Part shown: positions 1,576 through 35,746 of the stretch, piece by piece
Position numbering within the stretch: the first letter of the stretch is position 1
How the letters are laid out: each line of letters starts with the position of its first letter
Assembly: GCA_020809705.1 (NCBI GenBank)
Contig: CP085829.1
Location: forward strand, 5,828,001 to 5,892,000
DNA: 64,000 bases
Direction of reading: 5' to 3'
Source of the DNA: Calonectria ilicicola
Lineage: Eukaryota > Ascomycota > Sordariomycetes > Hypocreales > Nectriaceae
The notes under the pieces: model-generated
Seen by the model: only the letters and a program-made list of their open reading frames with translations
Database searches by the model: none
What the model was told of the DNA's origin: nothing
Position numbers and translations under genes: made by a program

Positions 1576-4022
1576 ATGACTGGGCCTATTGCCATACTCT
1601 TAATATTCGTTTTTGTCATCGTGCTGTGTGTTATATTGATGATATGCGCAAGATGGCATAACGTGCCACCCGGAGCGTACATTTCTCAAACCGTTGCTCG
1701 ATATTTGCGCTCTGTTACATTTCTATTTACTCGCCTTTGCCTTTTCCGCCTTCCTAGATATCAACAGCCACCATGCATAGAGGGTTGCAGGACGGGAAGA
1801 GGGCGTTTATGCGAACTTTGTGACATGATGGTTGAAAAATCGCATCTGCTCACAGGCTCTACTTGGCCACGGATTAGACGACCCGAGAATTATGCTCATC
1901 ATAAAATAAAGGACCTGGATGTCTCATCTAGAAATTGTCAATTGTGTTTGGTTCTTTTGCGCTCATGGTCTTCGCGGCTGACAGAATTGCCGTCTTTTCC
2001 GACCGTAAACGGCAACCCAACCACACACATTGAGGGTACGCGATTGATGGTCAGAATAGAAGAAAACGTGAAAACGGGTGAACTTCTGATGGGTATTGGT
2101 GATAGAAAAGAATTATTGAATCTTACAGTGAGTGAAGGTAAGAAATGTCGACAACTAAAAGTGCAATCATTTGTTGATATCACCTAGAGGTAACAACGCA
2201 TGAATGCGATACATGCGAAAAAACATATTCCTCAGCTGTTATGAAATTGGCCAAATCTTGGATAGCAGCTTGCCAACAACACCCGATCTGTAAAGCCAAC
2301 TATTCCCCCCACTCTAGCACAGGATTTACCCCAACTCGCCTTTTAGCAGTCGGGAATCCTGGAGAACCAACGATCCGTCTTTGCGCCCAGCTAGAATTAC
2401 CAAAAACAGATGAGATACAATATACGGCGCTGAGTCATTGCTGGGGAAACGGGGTCCCCACGACACTAACTTACGAAAACGCAAATGATCTGATGAGCTC
2501 GATTCGGCTCAAGGACCTGCCTAAAAGTTTTCGAGATGCTGTTCTGATCACAAGAGATCTGGGGATTCCGTATCTTTGGATAGATTCGCTATGTATCATC
2601 CAGAGCTCTAGCGAAGATTGGATGGCTGAATCTACCAAGATGGGTCTGGTATATGCCAAAGCTGTTTGCGTTCTCTCCGCAACAAGCTCGGATAATTTTC
2701 TTGGAGGATTGTCTCATGACAAAACACCATTTCAACAAGATTCCCAGTGCGTACTAAGGAAACAGAATGACCGACTTCTTATCGTCCGACCAAAAGATTT
2801 CGGAGGTCAGCAAAGAGAGGCATTAACAGAATTATTTGCAAATTATGTCGAGAAAGCCCCAGTAACGACAAGAGCTTGGACATTTCAGGAGCGAATGCTT
2901 TCTTCTCGTGTCTTACATTTTTCCAAGGGATTTGTTTTGTTCGAGTGTAACACGGTGCAAGCATCAGAATATCACACAAATGGTATCGTGTACTCTTTAA
3001 AAAAGAACCTTCAAGCCAACGGCACAGCTCGGTCAAGAACTGAGCAAGTCAATTTAAATCAAGAAGATGAGGAATTCATTACAGTACTTCATCCTTACTA
3101 CACGCGTTACCCAAGAAGCCTACTCACAGGACGGCATCGGTTCATGGGCAAAGAGGTGTATCGTAACCCAGCGTATAAGAGCTTGGAACAAAAGAGAATG
3201 GATTTTTTCCACTCTTCTGCATTGATGGGAATGCGAGGGGAATTCCAGTTGCTTCTCAAGTCAGGAAAAAAGTCCTTCCAAGAGAAATTTGAATTTCATC
3301 ATAGTTGGTACCAGCTTGTTGAACAATACTCCCAGAGAAATTGGACAAAAATAACAGATCGGATCCCTGCGATTCTTGGGGTTGCAGAATTTATTACAAA
3401 CAGTTCTGGATCGAGATTTATAGCTGGCTTATGGGAAGATAATCTGGAACTGGATTTACTATGGAACGTTCCACAAGGGTGCTTAGGTGAGAGAATATCT
3501 CCAAAAACGCCAACTTGGTCGTGGGGATCGTTGAATGGAAGAATTGGATCACGAATACTGCGGGATTCTAAAGCCGTATCAGGCATGTTAGTAAGCCACT
3601 TTCTTATCGCAGATATGCGCATTCGGACTGCAGAGGATGGGAAAGTAGTATCCAGTGGTACGCTGGAGCTATCTGCTTATATTTGTGAGTTCTCTCATTT
3701 TGAAGTGAACTACATCCCGGACACTACATCGTCATCACAAGACTCTAATTTGGTGCTTCTTCCAGTCCTTGAATTGAGCTCTAACCTACAGATAAATTCG
3801 GAGACTGCCTTAATCCCTAGACAGATCCACTGGATAGTATTTCTTCGGATGACGAATTGCCAATTTTCACTAGAGCGGGATACTTTTGGACAGACACGGC
3901 TAAAACAACAAACGGATTACAGTGAGGCATTCAAGTCCAGCCACAGCAGCAAATTACTATTTTTTAAAAACAATAAATATCAATTTCCTATTATCCACAA
4001 GCCTAGGGATTTTTATTATTAG
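1576..4022 (+). CDS. HET-domain protein with N-terminal transmembrane segment
   Basis: Two exons, 1576-2137 and 2236-4022, joined by a 98-bp phase-1 intron (GTAAGA...CCTCAG), giving 782 residues. The HET domain (about residues 225-345) shows the canonical blocks YTALSHCWG, LPKSFRDAVLITRDLGIPYLWIDSLCIIQ and YAKAVCVLSATSS, then the downstream RAWTFQERMLSSRVLHF block typical of these proteins. HET domains trigger cell death in vegetative incompatibility between fungal strains. Unusually, residues about 4-26 are a strong hydrophobic helix (AILLIFVFVIVLCVILMI), so the protein is probably membrane anchored with the HET part behind it. A Cys-rich stretch (CIEGC..CELCD) follows at about residues 68-83. 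The stop falls in an AT-rich tail. The splice assignment is inferred from phase; a longer or shorter C-terminus is possible. Partner genes are not evident nearby. Confidence 0.85.
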
Positions 4023-5060: not shown

Positions 5061-8000
5061 ATGAGCCACTCACCAACAGATGACAACGACATCAGCCCGA
5101 CCGGATCGTCGCCTGGAGATGATGTGGGCTGCTCTGAGAAGGGGCCGATAACTGAGCCCAGCCAGATTTCGGTCTATGGGCGCACGAATGAGACACATGA
5201 TGAAGAAAGCGAGCATTCATGCCGAAGCAATGATTTTCAGACTCCATACTCGAGTCGACGCCCGACCTTTTTTCGAGACCGACGGGAATCCGTGCCCGCA
5301 ATTGAAGCAAGCGACAGAAATGAATTAGTGCGGATTGCGACAGCTCTCTCTCGCCGTCAGACTGCCTCTGGTGTTCACACCCTCGCCGTTCAGGACCAGG
5401 CGTCTCCTGAGCTAGATCCTCTGAGCGACTTCTTCAATCTGGAAAAATGGCTGCAACATTTTGTCAGAACTCTGAGCGAGCAGGGAATCACTGCCAAGCA
5501 GACCGGTGTGGTGTATAAGGATCTCAATGTTACTGGATCTGGGGCTGCTGTGCAGGTCCAAGAGACTGTGGGATCGATGCTGTTGACCCCGCTGAACTTG
5601 GGTGAAAAGTGGAGGTCGAGAAAAAAGGTTCATAAGCAAATATTGCGAAATTTCGATGGCCTAATTCGAAGCGGGGAGCTTTTGATTGTCCTCGGAAGAC
5701 CAGGATCTGGATGCAGCACTCTTTTAAAAACTCTGTGTGGAGAGCTTAACGGGCTGAGTATTGACCATGGATCTACCGTTCATTATAATGGAATCCCTCA
5801 AAAGTTGATGATCGAGGAATTTAAAGGCGAGGCCATTTACAACCACGAGGTTCGTACGGGAGGCGATTGGAGTAGGCTCATGCTGACAATGGCCAGGTTG
5901 ATAAGCACTTCCCCCACCTGACAGTAGGCCAAACCTTGGAGTTTGCGGCATCTGTCAGGACACCCTCTCACCGCATCAATAACATGAGCCGAAAAGATTT
6001 TGTTCATTACATCGCTCGTGTCATCATGGCAGCTTTTGGTCTCAGTCATACTTACAACACAAAGGTAGGAAATGATTTTATTCGAGGTGTATCTGGTGGT
6101 GAGCGAAAGCGAGTGTCCATTGCTGAGATGGCTTTATCTGGATCTCCATTTTCCGCTTGGGATAACAGCACCCGTGGCCTTGATTCTGCCACTGCCTACA
6201 AATTTATTTCATCTATGAGAATGGCCGCCGACATGGGCAAGAAAGCCAACGCCGTGGCAATTTATCAGGCCAGCCAAGCAATGTACGACCTCTTCGACAA
6301 AACAGCAGTCCTCTACGAAGGCCGGCAAATCTACTTTGGCCCCGCAGGCCAAGCTCGAGATTTTTTTGAGAGACAGGGCTGGCATTGTCCCACTCGCCAA
6401 ACAACTGGCGATTTTTTGACGTCAATCACGAATCCTGTGGAAAGAAAACCTCAAGTTGGGATGGAACAAAAGGTCCCGCGAACTCCAGAAGAGTTTGAGC
6501 GCTACTGGCATGAGTCACCCGAGTACGAAAGCCTGAAGAAAGAAATTGCAGAATATGAAGAGGAATATATGGTAGAAAGAGAAGGTGAGAGCATTGCCCG
6601 ACTCAGAGAGCAAAAGAGCAAACAGCAATCCAAACACGTTCGACGAGGTTCACCGTACATGATTAGTATCTGGATGCAAGTCCGCCTTTGCACGAAGCGG
6701 GCTTATCAGCGAATTTGGAATGACATGTCAGCTACGGGAACCCAGTGTTTTGTTCAACTAACAATGGCACTAATTATCGGATCGATTTTCTACGGAACTC
6801 CGGATGCAACTGCTGGTTTCTATGCAAAGGGCTCTGTACTCTTCATGGCCATTCTGCTCAATGCTTTGACAGCCATATCAGAAATCGGCAATCTGTATGC
6901 CCAGAGACCAATTGTGGAAAAACATGCTTCATTTGCATTCTACCATCCGGCTTGTGAGGCCGCCGCAGGCGTCATGGCTGATATCCCAATAAAATTTGTA
7001 ACGTCCACCGTTTTCAACGTTGTCCTTTATTTTATGGCAGGATTACGCCGAGAACCGGGTCCTTTTTTCCTCTACTTTTTGATCACCTACATATCCACCT
7101 TCGTCATGACCGCTGTATTCCGTACCATGGCTGCAGTCACAAAGACTGTTGCACAAGCCATGACTTTATCAGGCGTCATGGTGCTAGCTCTCGTTCTTTA
7201 CGTTGGATTCACTATTCCGGGGCCCGAAATGAAACCGTGGTTCTCTTGGATAAGATGGATAAATCCAATCTATTATGCCTTTGAGATCCTTGTCTCTAAC
7301 GAATTTCATGGTCGCCAATTCACTTGTTCGAGTATCATTCCTCCATACACTCCTCTTGTCGGAAAATCATGGATTTGTGCCAGCACTGGGGCAGTAGCGG
7401 GCGAGCACACTGTGAGCGGCGATGCCTTCATTGCTGAAAACTATCAGTACTACTACCATCATGTTTGGAGAAACTTTGGGATTCTTATTGTATTCCTGGT
7501 TGCGTTTATGGCTATTTACTTTGTCGCTATCGAGCTGAATTCTTCCACTGAGAGCACCGCAGAAACGCTAGTGTTTCAAAAAGGAAAGGTCCCTAGTAGA
7601 TTGCAAAAGAATAATGGTCAGACGCAAGAAGAGGAAGGCATGTCCATACCCTCAGCCCCTCTGAAAAGTCCTGAAGGCGGAGACGTGAGTGCGATTGAAC
7701 CTCAGACGGATATCTTTACTTGGAATGATGTGGTATACGATATTGAGATAAAGGGCGAGTGGAGAAGGCTTTTGGATTCAGTGTCTGGTTGGGTTAAGCC
7801 GGGAACATTGACCGCCCTGATGGGTGTTAGTGGTGCGGGGAAGACAACTCTCCTTGATGTGCTCGCGCAGCGCGTGAGTACTGGCATCATTACTGGCGAT
7901 ATGCTGGTCAACGGAAAACCATTAGATGCCAGCTTTCAGAGGAAGACGGGTTATGTTCAACAACAAGGTATGGTTCATGAGGTTTCAACTTGACATTGCT

Positions 8001-8888
8001 AACATTTGTTTAGATTTGCACCTTCAAACCGCGACTGTCCGGGAAAGCTTGCAGTTTAGTGCGTTGTTAAGACAACCCAAATCTGTGAGTAAACAGGAAA
8101 AGTACGCATACGTTGAGCAAGTGATCAAAATGCTTGGAATGGAAGAGTACGCAGACGCTATTGTTGGCGTCCCTGGCGAAGGTCTCAATGTCGAACAGCG
8201 GAAACTTTTGACTATTGGAGTTGAGCTGGCTGCCAAGCCAAAGCTGCTTCTTTTCCTCGATGAGCCTACAAGTGGCCTTGATTCGCAAAGTTCATGGGCC
8301 ATCTGTGCGTTTTTGCGAAAATTGGCCGACTCCGGACAGGCTGTGCTTTGTACAGTCCATCAACCAAGTGCTATCCTGTTTCAACAATTCGACAGGCTGC
8401 TATTCCTAGCCAAGGGTGGAAAGACACTATATTTTGGTGACATTGGAAATAATTGCCAGACCATGCTCCGCTATTTTGAGTCAAATGGTGCTCGATTGTG
8501 CGGTGAAGAAGAGAACCCGGCTGAATATCTACTGGAAATCGGAAACAGTGGCTTCAACAATTTCGGGAAACCGTGGTACGACATTTGGAAAGAGAGCAGC
8601 GAGCTTTCAGCTGTGCAATCCGAAATTAGGAGAATCCATGCCGCCAAAGGCACAGAACCGGCACCCGTCGAAAAGGGCTCTGTTTCTGAATTTGCAATGC
8701 CCTTTTGGACTCAACTTCTGGCTGTGACCCGTCGAGTCTTCCAGCAATACTGGAGGATGCCTGGCTACATCTTTGCCAAATTTGCTTTGGGTATTGCCGC
8801 AGGTCTGTTCATCGGGTTTTCATTCTATAAAGCGGATTCTACGCAAGCTGGAATGCAATTTGCCATCTCCACCTTTTCCAATCGCTGA
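5061..8888 (+). CDS. PDR-type ABC transporter, truncated in the second membrane domain
   Basis: Exons 5061-5849, 5897-7967 and 8014-8888, with 47- and 46-bp introns (branch sites CTGAC and CTAAC), give 1244 residues; full PDR/CDR proteins have about 1450-1500. Order NBD1-TMD1-NBD2-TMD2: NBD1 has the PDR-typical degenerate Walker [10 protein letters not shown] (about 212-220), signature [10 protein letters not shown] (about 329) and [15 protein letters not shown]1 follows with FHGRQF near its end; NBD2 has intact Walker [10 protein letters not shown] (about 907), degenerate signature LNVEQRK (about 1011) and [14 protein letters not shown]. Such pumps export drugs and toxic lipophiles at the plasma membrane. 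After the first TMD2 helix ([19 protein letters not shown]) homology stops at about 8858 and the frame ends at once in sequence antisense to an MFS gene. The remaining five or so helices and large loop are absent, so transport function is probably lost. Catalytic NBDs themselves look undamaged, suggesting a recent break. Confidence 0.93.
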
Positions 8889-10027
8889 GTGCATTGAACC
8901 CGATGTTTGTAATAATGCTAATAGCATATCCCCCAAGCGGAATCAGGTTCACGGTATACACTGAATAAAGGGCATCGCCGTTTGAGTCCTTTAATCCCTT
9001 GAGGTAGAGTAGGAAATATGAGTTTGCACGCTGGCTCCAGGCAAATTGAAGGTAAGCAGCGAGGAAGAGGTAAGAGATTGGACTCTTGACAAGAAGCTTG
9101 AGCTTTTGGATCAGAACCTTGAACGGAATGAGCTTGGACGTTTTTGTTCCAGTGTCCTCCATTCGGGAACGAGAGAGATCCCTTTCTTGCTCTGTTAAAT
9201 AGAGAGCCCGCGTAATCGAAGGAGAGTCAGGGATGGCGAAAAGACCGACAAAGCCCCAGAAAATTGTCATAATTCCAGACACAATGAACAGCCACTGCCA
9301 TCCTGCAAGGCCTCCAGCTCCATTAAGATTCTTGTATAGTGCTGCTTGGACAATGCCCAGAAACATGCTTCCAGCAACCCCACTGACACCAAATATTGCC
9401 AGCCGCTTACCTAATTCCTTGGGATTATACCTGCTCACGATCAGTAAAAATTCCAAAATAGAATATCTCGATTGTACCAGTTTAGAATCAAGGAGACGAT
9501 GCCGGGCCATGATGTAGACTCAAATACTCCAAGAAAGAATCGCAATACGTAAATAGTTCGAGCATTTTTGGCCTTGTACGTGACCAGAGTGAATGTTCCC
9601 CAAATTATCTCACAGATTGGAAGAAATATGGACGGCCGAACTCTGGTTTGGATGATTTGGGAGGGCACGATGAAAAGAGCATAGCCGATCGAGAAATAAG
9701 TTGTGAATTCCACCAGCTCATTTCCATATAGCTTTAAGTCCTCCTTCATTCCTGAGACATAAGCTGCGGTCGTGGCGCTCTGATCCATGTCTTTGAACAG
9801 CTGAGATTGAGATTAGACAAGACATTAGGATGAAATGAGTAATCGAGACTTACACCAGCAATAAAAGCCCATGATAGAAGCAGCAAATCCAATTTGAGTA
9901 CCAGTACGTGATTTGGATCCTTGAAGTAGGGATGAATCTTAGCAAGCCATGATGTGGACTCATTAATCCCCTCAACAGATTGCACTAGAGGGCTCGCAGG
10001 GCCTTTGAGGCTCGATGTCGGCGACAT
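8839..10027 (-). CDS. MFS permease of the Dal5/allantoate (ACS) type, C-terminally truncated
   Basis: Exons 10027-9854, 9800-9478 and 9430-8839, with 53- and 47-bp introns, give 362 residues against about 500 for the family. The start MSPTSSLKG has a good context (ATAACCATG). Typical blocks follow: [81 protein letters not shown] and [16 protein letters not shown]. Family members import organic anions such as allantoate, nicotinate or sulfonates. The protein ends at [15 protein letters not shown], just where the last three or so membrane helices should begin; the end lies inside the 3' end of the convergent, equally truncated ABC gene. It is divergent from a TauD-type dioxygenase, suggesting an original sulfonate or related uptake role (inference). 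Probably non-functional now. Confidence 0.9.
8853..8862. other. probable rearrangement breakpoint joining two broken genes
   Basis: Reading rightward, PDR transporter homology runs to about ATGCAA (8853-8858). Reading leftward, MFS homology ([10 protein letters not shown]) runs to about 8857. A few shared bases mean the exact join could be shifted by microhomology. Neither gene's missing part is found on the other side, so this looks like an inversion, translocation or deletion end point. Confidence 0.75.
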
Positions 10028-10711: not shown

Positions 10712-11813
10712 ATGTCTTCTGAGCCACTTTATCCTACATATCTCCCCACACGATCGGACGGATATGTCGCACCGGAAAAGGTGCCCTTGTTTGAAGCTGA
10801 GGAGCCCGGGAACCGTGCAAACCCAGCTAAGCCAAACCTATTGAAAGCCGGGGGTGAAGTGACAAATATCACTCCCAGGATTGGAACCGAAATCCGAGGT
10901 GTACAGATCAGCAAGCTTAGTAAAGAGGGTCTCGATGAGGTGGCTCTTTTGGCAGCAGAAAGAGGCGTCGTTGTTTTTGTCAGTGTCCCCGATCATGAAA
11001 AGCGCGCATTCGTTACTGACGTCTCAGATTAGCGAGACCAAGATTTTGCAGATGTGGGATTCGATAAACAACGTGAAATTGTAAAACATTATGGTCCGCT
11101 CCATCACCATCCCACAATGGGGTATCCCAAAGGGTCAGGGCCTGAATTTCACGTTGTCTACGCCGATGAGAAATCGTAAGGGCCTTGGTTTACCATGCCA
11201 CGATGCAAGCTAATGTCGGATTAGGGGCAATTTGAGAACACTGCTTGGGCCGAGAACTACGTATGATCTTTGGCATATCGATCAAACTTTTACTCCAAAT
11301 GTCCCCTCGACAACATTTTTCTGGGTTCTTGAGATGCCCAAGTCGGGAGGTGGCGATACCGCATTCACATCACTCACAGCAGCTTATGAGAGCCTATCGC
11401 CAGCTTTTAGGGAGACCTTGCTATCACTGAGATTGCTCCACACCTCAGCTTCTGAGGGTGAGGTACGAAGAGTCGGTACTGAGCGTGCACTAAAGGAAGC
11501 CATCAATGCCTCACACCCACTTATTATCAAGCACCCTGTCATCAGAAAGCCTGTGCTTTTTGTCAATCCTGCGATTGCACGTCAAGTGGAGGGGTTCTTG
11601 CCTGAAGAATCTCAGCAGCTTTTGTCGTTCCTTCATAATCACATCAAAAGCTTAGACTTCACTTGCCGTGTGAGATGGGAGAAGGGTACAGTAGTCGTTT
11701 GGGATCAGCGTTCATGCGCGCATTCTGCTGTGCCGGATTTCCAGGAAAATGAGAGACGGCACATGGTGAGAATCATTCCCTATGGTTCCAAGCCGGAGGC
11801 ATTCTCCAAGTAA
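10712..11813 (+). CDS. TauD/TfdA-type Fe(II)/2-oxoglutarate dioxygenase
   Basis: Exons 10712-10978, 11033-11175 and 11225-11813 (introns 54 and 49 bp, branch sites CTGAC and CTAAT) give 332 residues, normal for fungal sulfonate/taurine dioxygenases. The iron site is visible: His154 and Asp156 in DLWHIDQTF and the distal His303 in SCAHSAVPDF; the 2-oxoglutarate-binding Arg is near 315-319 (RRHMVRI). Other family blocks are ITPRIGTEIRGVQIS, ERGVVVFRDQDF and HHHPTMGYPKG. Such enzymes release sulfite from organosulfonates, letting the fungus use them as a sulfur source; alpha-ketoglutarate-dependent alkylsulfatase or herbicide-type activity is possible. It appears intact, while its divergent transporter partner is truncated. 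The start at MSSEPLYPTYLP was chosen because homologous sequence begins there. Confidence 0.92.
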
Positions 11814-30915: not shown

Positions 30916-33249
30916 TTAAGACTGCCTCTTGATCCACTGGTGGCTGAGCTTCTCCTTGTCAGCCACACGTTTAACTTCATCATACACCCTCGCCGTTAGG
31001 TATTTGTAAATATACACATCAGCTCCGTTGTAGTTGATGCTGTGGTCGCTATCGGTAAAGGCAAACATCTTCATTTGCTCTGGTGAAACACCTTCTCCCA
31101 CAAGCAAGTCGATCAGGGCTGCTGCATGCTGGTAGTGCACATTGTCGTCACCAGTGCCGTGCAGAATGCTGAAACCGCCAGCTACATTCTTGAAGCCGTC
31201 AACCTTGTGCACGGCCGTCTCAAGATAACCAGCATTGTTTCCTTCCAACGTCTTCATGTAGCGTTCTGTGTACATGGAGTCGTAGAAGCGCCAATCAGAT
31301 ACTGGTGCGGTGATCAACCCAAAGGTGAACACACCAGAGTCGACTTCAAGAGTTTTGGCTGTGAGATATCCACCGTAGGACCATCCCCACATTCCAACCT
31401 TTTCGGGGTTGATGTAGTCAAACTTTTTAATCAACTCCTCTGCAGCCCAAATCTGGTCCAAAGGCTCAAGCTTGCCCAGCTGCGAGGCAACAGTGGAGCG
31501 GTAGGCGCGTCCCCGGTAACCAGTGCCACGGTTGTCAACCGTGTAGGTGATGTACTGAAGCTCTGGATCAGAGCTGATATACTGTTTCCAGTTGTATGTC
31601 TGGAATCTCTTGTAAACGTACTGTGAGTTGGGTCCTCCGTAAGGGGTAAATAGGACCGGGTATTGCTTTGATGAATCGAAGTTGGCAGGCAGGTTTTGCA
31701 TAACGTTTAGTTTGTAACCATCTGGGTGCTCGAGTTCAAAATAGGTAATGTTCGGCAGTTTGTATTCAGAGATTTTTTCGTAAAAGGCCTTGTTGTCTTC
31801 CACAACGCGCAACGGCTTGGAAGTGGAGTTGGACGAATAGAGTTCCTGATAGGGGACATCTGGGCCGAGGTAGTTCAGGACATAGTAGCCTCCATTCGAA
31901 GAGAATGAGGCTGACCAATAAGCGGAAACACTATCATCGACAAGGGGCGAGATCTTTTTGTCAGCCCAAGACACCTTGTAAATGTGACGTTCGGTTGAGT
32001 GACGAGTTGTGGCTTGGTAGTAGATGAGGCTTCGTGTAGTGTCGATGTACAGGATAGCAGAGACCTCCCATTCTCCCGAGGTGAGTTGAATGGACTCTCC
32101 ACCTTTGACAGGATACAAATAAATGTGGTTCCAGCCATCCTCATCAGAGAGATCAACGTAGTATGAGCCATTGCTCGAGCCCTTGAGGGGGCCCACGTAT
32201 GAAATGGCCACTGTGTTTTCCAACCATCCGTCAGTGCCGTCGCGTTCACGGACAACATTAGAGGTCAAAGTAGTTGGGTCAACAACGACATGCTTATCCA
32301 AATCTTGGACGCGATTGAAGGCGCGATAAATGAGCGCAGTGTGAGTATCGGTGACCCAAGAAACCTCACCAATAATGAGATTGTCAGGCTCAAATGCATC
32401 AACGGGCACAGTCTCATATTCGCCAGTGGAAACGGTAAGCAGGTTGAGTTGGACAGTTGGGTTGGTGGACCCGACCTTGGGGTATCTCAGATCCAGCTCC
32501 TTGGGATAAGTAGGAGCCAATTTTTGTCCATCCATGTAATATGGAATGGTAAAGGTGTCGACTCCAGTCTCGTTGAAGCTTAAAAAGGCGACATACTTGG
32601 CATCTGGGGAAAACCACAAGGTGTAACGATCACCAAAAATCTCCTCTTCATAAACCCAGTCGGGTACACCGTGAAACATATCCGGCCCACCATCTGTCGT
32701 GATTTGGCTGATTTTACCCGTGCTTTGGTCCAGCAGGAAGAGGTTGTTGTCGCGGACAAATGCTACAGCATCACCACTGGGAGCAAGCGCGGCGTATTGG
32801 ATATCTCCAACTTGGTTGTCTGTAAGAGGCGACAGCTCTCCGGAATTGATGTCAAGAATGAAATAATCCGCAAAATAAGAGTGGCGGTATTGCTTAGTTG
32901 CGTTGGCAGCAATGAGCATGCGACCGGTGCCGCTGCTAATCCAGTACTCCTCAACATCCGCAGGAAGTTTATCAGCGGCGACGAGGGTTTTCGTGCTCCC
33001 AGAAACAACGTTGCCCAGGACTATATCACCAGCCGAGTTTGACGTAAAGTATTGGCCATCATCGCCAGCAGAATACCAATCAAAGCTTGAGCTTGAGGGT
33101 CTGATCTTTGCACTGGGACTGGTCTCATTGAATGTCAAGAGTCGTTCACCACTGCCCACAGGTTGATATGGGTTGCGAGGAGGATCAATCGCCGAAGCGA
33201 GATGTGAGAGAGATAAAAGGGCCTGGACGGCGTACTTAATTGTCGCCAT
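30916..33249 (-). CDS. dpp4: secreted dipeptidyl peptidase IV (S9B)
   Basis: Single exon, 777 residues, the full family length. The start is the ATG at 33249 (MATIKYAVQALLSLSHLASA, signal peptide); codons upstream lack an ATG. The N-terminal beta-propeller contains the substrate-anchoring double Glu in DWVYEEEIFGDR. The alpha/beta-hydrolase domain holds the triad Ser624 (GWSYGG), Asp701 (GTGDDNVH) and His736 (DSDHSIN), all intact. The enzyme removes X-Pro or X-Ala dipeptides from peptide N-termini outside the cell. Multiple N-x-S/T sites fit secretion. It lies 840 bp downstream of an M14 carboxypeptidase on the same strand; together they would trim peptides from both ends. Expression control is not visible. 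Confidence 0.97.
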   Translation of the reverse strand: MATIKYAVQALLSLSHLASAIDPPRNPYQPVGSGERLLTFNETSPSAKIRPSSSSFDWYSAGDDGQYFTSNSAGDIVLGNVVSGSTKTLVAADKLPADVEEYWISSGTGRMLIAANATKQYRHSYFADYFILDINSGELSPLTDNQVGDIQYAALAPSGDAVAFVRDNNLFLLDQSTGKISQITTDGGPDMFHGVPDWVYEEEIFGDRYTLWFSPDAKYVAFLSFNETGVDTFTIPYYMDGQKLAPTYPKELDLRYPKVGSTNPTVQLNLLTVSTGEYETVPVDAFEPDNLIIGEVSWVTDTHTALIYRAFNRVQDLDKHVVVDPTTLTSNVVRERDGTDGWLENTVAISYVGPLKGSSNGSYYVDLSDEDGWNHIYLYPVKGGESIQLTSGEWEVSAILYIDTTRSLIYYQATTRHSTERHIYKVSWADKKISPLVDDSVSAYWSASFSSNGGYYVLNYLGPDVPYQELYSSNSTSKPLRVVEDNKAFYEKISEYKLPNITYFELEHPDGYKLNVMQNLPANFDSSKQYPVLFTPYGGPNSQYVYKRFQTYNWKQYISSDPELQYITYTVDNRGTGYRGRAYRSTVASQLGKLEPLDQIWAAEELIKKFDYINPEKVGMWGWSYGGYLTAKTLEVDSGVFTFGLITAPVSDWRFYDSMYTERYMKTLEGNNAGYLETAVHKVDGFKNVAGGFSILHGTGDDNVHYQHAAALIDLLVGEGVSPEQMKMFAFTDSDHSINYNGADVYIYKYLTARVYDEVKRVADKEKLSHQWIKRQS

Positions 33250-34088
33250 TTTTCCTGTCAAAGAACCCAGACCTTATTCCAGTCGGCTATTCAGACATGA
33301 ACAACTGCCTGCATCAATTGCGAAAAAGTTGGTAGAGGAGCGATCGTCTTTTAAGCTACTCGATGAGCAAATAGGTGGTCCCTTTGCCTAGACTCCATAA
33401 TTTAGAATCATCATCCGCAGGTGTATCGCCTTCCTCTCAGGGTACACGGACCTGCTGCTTTTGGATACTTGGAAAAAGTTCCCGCCAAGACTGCAACCAA
33501 TTTCCTGCAGGGGTTAGCCTCTCAATGGCACGTCCAACAGGAACAGGAAAAGCTGCATGAGACCTCGTAATTCATCGCTAGTAGGGAGCGAGAAAACAAG
33601 ACGGGATAAATAGACGCGGAGATTGGCCAGGGTGAAAGAGATGTCGTGATTAAGGATGGAGAGTTCGCGTTTTGGGTTATGCCGTGGAACATTTGAATGC
33701 ATACCGGGGTGTGGTTGATCATTGATTGCAGGGTATGCTGCAGAGGGTGATCCCCCTGTAACAAGAGGAGGGGGAAATACTATCGGACATCAATAAATCC
33801 TAAACATTGTCTCACTCAATTACGACTACTCCTTCAATCGATAAACACGCAAAAGCAAATCTACAAAGAATGATTCTCGTATGGCCAGAATTTTTGTCTG
33901 GCGTGGTCGGCCACTCTAGGCCCGAGCTCCGATGTGCTCTCGTGGGGCAATCCCAGCATAAAAGCCTTGGCTTGAAGATCATTGCAAAAGGTCCAGACAC
34001 TAAGTTGATCGTTTAAATATTACTATACAGGGAAAGAATTAACCTGTTTTTAGCATATTTTGCATATTGGAATTGTCTCATTACAATA
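33250..34088. other. promoter of dipeptidyl peptidase gene
   Basis: Spacer between two same-strand peptidase genes; short frames here show no domain. Confidence 0.5.
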
Positions 34089-35746
34089 TTAACCCAGAAT
34101 GCGGAATATAGGATACTCGTCGCCTGCGCTCAATGGGATAATGTTTGTGCTAGCGTACGAATCCTCGCCTTCGGGCTCTAGCGCGACTATTGCGAGCCCT
34201 GCATTTTTCTGCCTTGTGCTGACCAAAAAGCTGCCCTTGGGGAATTCCTTTTGTTCGTTTGCTGCACTTGTCACTACGGTGGCGAGTACTGAACCCTCAT
34301 AGTATTCGCCTTGGAATGAAACCGAGTCGACAGTAAGCACTTCGACTTTGCCGTTCCACACCTTGTCAAGTTTCTCGACTTCGACACCCGATGAGCGGAG
34401 CTTTTCTGCCACATCGCCCCATCCCGATGGGATCAGATAAGTCTCAGGTCTTGTTCTGGTGAAATTGGCCGTCTTAGGTGTAGATGGGCGGAATCGAATG
34501 GGTGCCTTGACGACGGAGCCGTTGTTCACGTCAATCATGGTAAATGTTCGGTCGACCAATTCAGAATAGTCTGTGATGATGATATCTTCCTTGGATTGGA
34601 TAAAATCCTCCACGGCGGTATCGATGGTGGAAAGGACCTTGTCGGCATTGTCAGCCGCAGTTTGAAGGATACTAGACGCCATGGTGAAAGCTGCAGCAGT
34701 GCGACGTTGAAATTCTTGGTCCGCTAGACGGATACCACGAGTTTCAATTAGGAAAGTGACACATTGGGTCAGTCCCATGGCGTTTCGGCCGATTCGAGCA
34801 TCGCTGCCGGCTTCAGCAAAAATAATTTCGTAACCAGGCTTGGTGCTAGAGTCAACCTCGCTCTCGATGTACGGTTCCCATCGCAGGTCACGGGCCTCCA
34901 TCGCCTCGCCAATGTTTTTAGCGAACAGATCTTCGGACAAATCCCGGATGTCGGGGTGAATGTTCAAATTTTTGGCTGCGGAGAAGAGGCCATCAGAGCC
35001 ATGCTTGTATGTTCCGTACTGGCGGTTAGCGGTGTATTCATGCATATCAACAGCGATGTGTGGGTTGAAGTCGTTGAAGAGAGACTTGATGCTTCGGGTT
35101 TGTTGGCGTGCCAGCTTGACATGATCGCGATTCGGATCAAAGTTGGTGGCCAGTGTCCGCTGGAAATAGAACACGCCGTCAGGGTTATAACGCGGCAAGA
35201 CGAAAATATCGAGCTTCTCAAGCAGTGATGTAGCCCATGTCTCGTTTGCGCTGAGAGCGCCTAGCAATGCCAATAGCGACTGGTCGCCAGCGGGTTCATT
35301 GCCGTGAACGCCGCCCTGCATCCAAACCCGAATCTTGCCATCCTGCTGATCAGAAGATCCTGAATACAGTCGCGCATAGGGAAATGAGCGACCCTCCTCC
35401 GAACCAAATTCGGCAGTATGATAATGTATCCAATCATTCTCATTGGCCAGGCGGCGAATGTAATTATCTATGCAGCCTATCAGCAAGCGTTCGCTCTTGT
35501 TAATTATTCTAAGCCCTTACCCAGAACCTTATCAGAGGTCGGTCCGCTGGTGCCATTCGAAAATCCAGCAGGAATTTTCTTGTCGGTGAACGCGGGTGAG
35601 AGCAATTTTAGCCCCTCGACATCTTGGAAATTCTTGGCGACAATGTCGCTATCCTTGTCGGTCTTGAGTTGATTGTACCCATATTTCGCTGCTTGGGCGG
35701 CTGCGATCATTGACAGGCCCACAAGGCCACTACAAGTCACTCTCAT
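34089..35746 (-). CDS. secreted M14 zinc carboxypeptidase
   Basis: Exons 35746-35521 and 35476-34089, joined by a 44-bp intron (phase 1), give 537 residues. The signal peptide is MRVTCSGLVGLSMIAAAQA. The M14 zinc site is visible as His and Glu in GGVHGNEPAG and the third ligand His in AVDMHEYT; the catalytic Glu is in TFLIETRGIR. Substrate-site residues appear in RYNPDGVFYFQR and NFDPNRDHVKL. The last about 170 residues form an extra C-terminal beta domain (FRPSTPKTANFTRTRPETYL and on) seen in fungal secreted members. It trims C-terminal amino acids from peptides outside the cell. A TATA-like stretch (about 35833-35840) lies about 90 bp upstream of the start. Specificity (A- or B-type) is not deduced. 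Confidence 0.93.

Follow-up and report, generated by a model that had tools for sequence, protein, structure and literature searches.

A deletion very probably joined two convergent, truncated transporter genes in Calonectria ilicicola

Genes of the locus and their relatives

The window analyzed here is a stretch of 64,000 nucleotides on contig C5 (bases 5828001-5892000) of a 69.9-Mb Calonectria ilicicola genome in 12 contigs. Three of its genes are the subject of this report. A PDR/ABCG-type ABC transporter gene on the forward strand (1244 aa; exons 5061-5849, 5897-7967, and 8014-8888) converges with a Dal5-type MFS permease gene on the reverse strand (362 aa; exons 10027-9854, 9800-9478, and 9430-8839). 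Divergent from the permease gene, and again on the forward strand, is an open TauD/TfdA-type dioxygenase gene (332 aa; exons 10712-10978, 11033-11175, and 11225-11813). The term Dal5-type is a label from the initial annotation; among the names that source records give to homologues are "pantothenate transporter liz1" and "vitamin H transporter."

Homologues were searched for with each of the three proteins, and the best 120 matches were listed for each. The best relatives were mostly Nectriaceae, the family of Neonectria, Ilyonectria, and Fusarium, to which Cylindrodendrum, Cosmosporella, and Thelonectria were assigned by taxonomy look-up. Top identities among the 120 listed were 76% for the ABC transporter, 83% over 98% of the length and 87% over 83% of it for the permease, and 87-88% for TauD, so no close strain is among the matches listed.

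Elsewhere in the window, a frame for a HET-domain (heterokaryon incompatibility) protein lies upstream of the ABC gene (2181-4019). A frame at 52889-55063 matches NPHP3_N and, below threshold, NACHT, a combination that we take to be as in fungal NLR-like proteins. A DPP IV-type peptidase frame (30919-33273) adjoins a frame (34092-35516) whose match to an M14 carboxypeptidase domain is limited to the initial part of that domain.

Two truncated transporter genes

The ABC gene product has the domain order NBD-TMD-NBD-TMD, with TMD2 incomplete. ABC_tran was matched in both halves, giving the two nucleotide-binding domains that a functional PDR/ABCG transporter needs. The second of these is split by an intron, its exon-3 piece alone scoring 20 bits against a cut-off of 25, and both domains retain conserved motifs (read by eye). 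The gene product falls short of the two complete six-helix membrane domains that are likewise needed: the ABC2_membrane match of the second half spans only positions 1-51 of 211, and hydropathy found 7 helices where the homologue P0122 has 12. Five helices of P0122 lie at or after the break, the first one spanning it. The exon-3 part (290 residues) aligned to Cdr1-type chains up to residue 282-283 in a search of solved structures. The orthologue P0126, from Cylindrodendrum, is PDR-like by TIGR00956 (NCBIfam), with a score under the model cut-off. It reads STQAGMQNVIFSVFLL at the place where the window has STQAGMQ, then FAISTFSNR and a stop, and goes on GMQNVIFSVFLL past the break. Homology thus stops at STQAGMQ, and the last nine residues, FAISTFSNR, are the permease gene read antisense.

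The permease gene is cut before its last four helices. Its homology extends as far as WRWQI or WRWQIA, the I codon being 8859-8857 and the A codon 8856-8854. In the window, WRWQIA is followed by FQLA and a stop at 8839; orthologues have WRWQVAVAVAALQ or WRWQVSVGAA at this place. A functional MFS permease requires 12 helices and a full MFS_1 domain, and here the MFS_1 match ends at 273 of 347. Four helices of the homologue P0001 lie at or after the break, the first one spanning it, by a simple hydropathy method that detected only 10 helices in that protein. The last exon gave no match to solved structures up to an E value of 1.

The lost parts are somewhat longer than the initial annotation had estimated (about 240 residues for the ABC transporter and 120-140 for the permease). 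P0126 has 264 residues past the break, and 118 of the 120 listed ABC homologues have 257-307, the exceptions being P0136 (155) and P0141 (240). For the permease, P0001 has 159 residues past the break and 117 of the 120 listed have 128-197; P0061 (73, labelled partial), P0075 (118), and P0076 (17) are the exceptions. Relatives with equally short proteins, which the initial annotation had named as a finding that would refute it, are thus not seen among the 120 listed for each gene apart from these five.

A shared breakpoint in an antisense overlap

The two homologies end together at 8854-8859, within a 50-base overlap between the two stop codons of the convergent gene models (8839-8888, the very span marked in the initial annotation). 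The final conserved Q codon of the ABC gene occupies 8856-8858 and the last conserved codon of the permease gene 8857-8859 or 8854-8856; the homologies therefore touch or share at most 5 bases. This agrees closely with the initial annotation, which placed the end of ABC homology at about 8858, after the first TMD2 helix, and the loss of the last permease helices at about 8857, with a few shared bases encoding both ends antisense to each other. Each truncated gene runs a few codons into the antisense strand of the other and then reaches a stop (8888 for the ABC gene, 8839 for the permease gene).

Starts and splice sites are intact, and the spliced frames of both genes are open, their 1606 codons being free of stops and frameshifts, as had also been claimed. 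The bases TGCAA at 8854-8858 are compatible with conserved residues of both genes. A microhomology of 0-5 bases at the join is possible, the number of shared bases being an estimate from the aligned codons, and up to 5 shared bases would suit end-joining repair. The only repeats found near the join are of 10-16 bases, and repeats were rejected as its cause since only these short ones are present.

Could the join be an assembly error connecting two places? It was judged from assembled sequence alone, which leaves such an error a slim chance, but several observations oppose it: the shortness of the nearby repeats, the absence of any N in the window of a genome assembled into 12 contigs, and a DNA search with 8000-9800 that returned only the region itself and diverged relatives (68-83% identity). 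The joined genes are moreover near neighbours in two relatives, which would be unexpected for a random misjoin.

Gene order in relatives

Those two relatives were found by reading gene order from locus tags and contigs. Cylindrodendrum hubeiense has the ABC gene (g4087), the permease gene (g4093), and the TauD gene (g4094) on one contig (length 153381), with five tags between ABC and permease. Cosmosporella sp. VM-42 has them as 044640, 044660, and 044670 on one contig (length 4076699), with one tag between ABC and permease. In both, the order ABC, permease, TauD is collinear with the window. The neighbourhood is not universal among relatives. Stylonectria has its listed ABC gene on one contig and its listed permease gene on another (lengths 62018 and 45392), as does Dactylonectria macrodidyma (lengths 1378466 and 7196004, with the ABC gene outside the window clade), and ABC and TauD are separated by 31 tags in Fusarium nematophilum.

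In a tree of the window ABC protein and 25 of the 120 listed homologues, the window falls in one clade with Cylindrodendrum g4087 (100/99). The Cosmosporella gene falls outside that clade and may not be a strict orthologue, so Cylindrodendrum is the only clear orthologous case. The ancestral neighbours in the same order, as expected for a deletion, are thus found in two relatives, one of them with a clear ABC orthologue, and other relatives differ or are ambiguous. The TauD tree places the window sister to Cylindrodendrum g4094 (95/94), and the permease tree places it, with weaker support (81/85), sister to Thelonectria olida P0035, which has 143 residues past the break.

Search for the lost tails

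The lost ABC tail was sought in the assembly with the tail of a paralogue on contig C4 (42 matches) and with the P0126 tail (48 matches). The top match to the P0126 tail genome-wide was the C4 paralogue (71%), which overall is 62% identical to the window ABC protein. With all 65 nucleotide-binding-domain matches used, 44 of the 48 P0126-tail matches had such a domain at most 3 kb upstream on the same strand, and three (23-26% identity) had it downstream, the arrangement expected of first membrane domains. The remaining match is a 53-residue piece on contig C3 (45%) with a nucleotide-binding domain on neither side. We rejected this piece as the missing tail and interpret it as the terminal part of a PDR gene that has diverged (46% over 52 residues against P0126). 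A move of the lost tail into the C4 paralogue was also rejected: the best matches of the C4 tail (Colletotrichum) lie outside the window clade, and with this tail alone as the query the ten members of the window clade ranked 17th to 118th of 120. The lost permease tail matched a paralogue on contig C2 at 53% and 14 other sequences, of 15 in all, at 19-35%; when the C2 tail was the query, 12 of 13 matches were at 23-32% and the remaining one was C2 itself.

Several other PDR-like ABC loci of the genome give fragmented matches, in some cases interrupted by in-frame stops (C6:498476-500392, C6:3797720-3799489, C6:3237418-3239235, C5:92057-93869, and C5:1268754-1270631). This fragmentation may reflect introns or decayed copies.

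Neither tail was found elsewhere in the 69.9-Mb assembly, which may be incomplete; the searches gave paralogues only. The missing C-terminal parts, predicted to sit together if an inversion or reciprocal translocation had occurred, were thus found neither together nor apart, and the tail queries revealed no reciprocal junction. An inversion does give tail-to-tail joins, as the initial annotation argued in proposing a single inversion, translocation, or deletion, and the homologues on different contigs in some relatives are in its favour or in that of a translocation. Against both are the missing other halves, a C4 paralogue that did not receive the tail, and the collinear order in two relatives. 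Inversion of a permease-TauD block would put TauD nearer to the ABC gene, whereas a deletion keeps the order and so fits what is observed. We therefore keep the single event and consider a reciprocal rearrangement, with the other halves elsewhere, very unlikely. Because the tails are absent from the assembly and the order is collinear in two relatives, a deletion fits best among the three.

Age of the truncation and rate of change

The initial annotation judged that the event looks recent. The open frames make this plausible, though the ABC protein sits on a long branch. The end branch of the window ABC protein measures 0.36, compared with distances of 0.14-0.25 between the same node and the ten other members of its clade; for the permease the branch is 0.14 and that of its sister 0.09, and for TauD the two values are 0.078 and 0.09. 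Three-point differences give a milder contrast than the tree branches: 13.7% for the window, 9.7% for Cylindrodendrum, and 14.0% for Cosmosporella in the ABC protein, 8.8, 8.3, and 13.6% in the permease, and 6.3, 6.9, and 10.3% in TauD. At columns invariant in the other sequences, the window is altered at 12 of 524 in the ABC protein (25 sequences; leave-one-out median 4, maximum 13), 4 of 198 in the permease (20 sequences; median 1, maximum 6), and 7 of 199 in TauD (15 sequences; median 2, maximum 9). By this measure TauD, although intact, has accumulated no less change than the cut genes, an argument against strong decay.

Under neutral decay of both genes, divergence since the cut would be at most about 1.6% (95% upper limit) when nonsense changes alone are counted, and at most 0.5% with frameshift indels set to 8% of substitutions; this indel rate and the transition weight are both assumptions. 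Most likely, the cut is recent and hit an ABC gene whose rate of change was already somewhat high.

Selection for short forms is the bolder alternative. It would follow if the faster evolution of the ABC gene postdates the cut, because such change under neutrality should leave stops. In its favour are the 1606 codons without stop or frameshift and the motifs kept in both nucleotide-binding domains, presumably Walker-type and signature-like. The ABC protein, however, is without most of one membrane domain and the permease without four helices, the ABC branch is the long one while that of TauD is no longer than its sister's, and no listed relative shares the short forms, the few short exceptions given above aside. 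We consider it very improbable that the truncation is adaptive, with the short proteins retained in use, perhaps in the role of a regulatory half-transporter, and give equally little credence to continued expression of both frames under selection for short proteins whose antisense 3' ends overlap.

A probable single deletion and its consequences

Taken together, we consider it very probable that a single deletion between two neighbouring genes cut the ABC and permease genes at one point; within the limits of the assembly, the lost parts are absent from the genome, as this reading predicts. In this lineage, the deletion would have removed the DNA from inside the ABC TMD2 to inside the permease gene, together with the intervening gene or genes. 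The two genes would already have been tail to tail in the ancestor. The ends would then have been joined, probably by end joining through a few shared bases, so that each open frame would run a few codons into the antisense strand of the other gene before stopping. The resulting products, each without most of a membrane domain, would most likely be non-functional.

Permease and TauD genes have consecutive locus tags on one contig in at least 11 of the listed genomes, from Colletotrichum to Aspergillus (by eye, 120 matches each), and apparently form an old conserved pair. The protein P0241 is taurine-dioxygenase-like by NF007104 (NCBIfam), with a score under the model cut-off. PMC5303821 describes Soa1 and AstA as members of the Dal5 family and reports that in Basidiomycota and Eurotiomycetes JLP1 orthologues co-localize with a transporter gene, the yeast JLP1 and SOA1 genes being on different chromosomes. 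That the permease may have carried out sulfonate transport of the Soa1 type is suggested only by the TauD neighbourhood. The window pair fits the fungal transporter-dioxygenase pattern, so the truncation may plausibly have abolished sulfonate uptake. The TauD dioxygenase is probably left without its neighbouring transporter; the paralogous permease on C2 (57% across the part that remains) could compensate.

Comparison with known systems

The event gives a clean, well-delimited example of gene loss of the ordinary sort, not of a novel kind of system, and it leaves general understanding unchanged. One step would have cut both a PDR-type transporter gene and a permease paired with a TauD-type dioxygenase; a sulfur-source phenotype would be expected from this, and with sister-strain sequences the open frames could serve to date the loss. 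Abstract openings on microhomology, deletion, pseudogenes, and convergent genes in fungal genomes, and on taurine dioxygenase with allantoate permease clusters, contained nothing specific.

The ABC protein shares its domain order with PDR (ABCG) transporters such as Cdr1 and Pdr5. Its exon-3 part aligns to CDR1 chains and to structure 7p03, which we take to be Pdr5, up to about the break; unlike these transporters, its TMD2 stops after the first helix and about 264 residues are gone. The permease resembles the Dal5-family permeases found beside TauD/Jlp1-like dioxygenases (the Soa1 family) in being an MFS_1 protein and a divergent neighbour of TauD, a likeness of family and neighbourhood, but it differs from them in having lost the last four helices. 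Truncated gene pairs created by deletion are a general class, belonging to ordinary pseudogenization. The window is like them in its one breakpoint, with both genes cut and the lost parts not found in the assembly, and is distinguished by having both cut ends in coding sequence and two open frames that overlap antisense by 50 bases.
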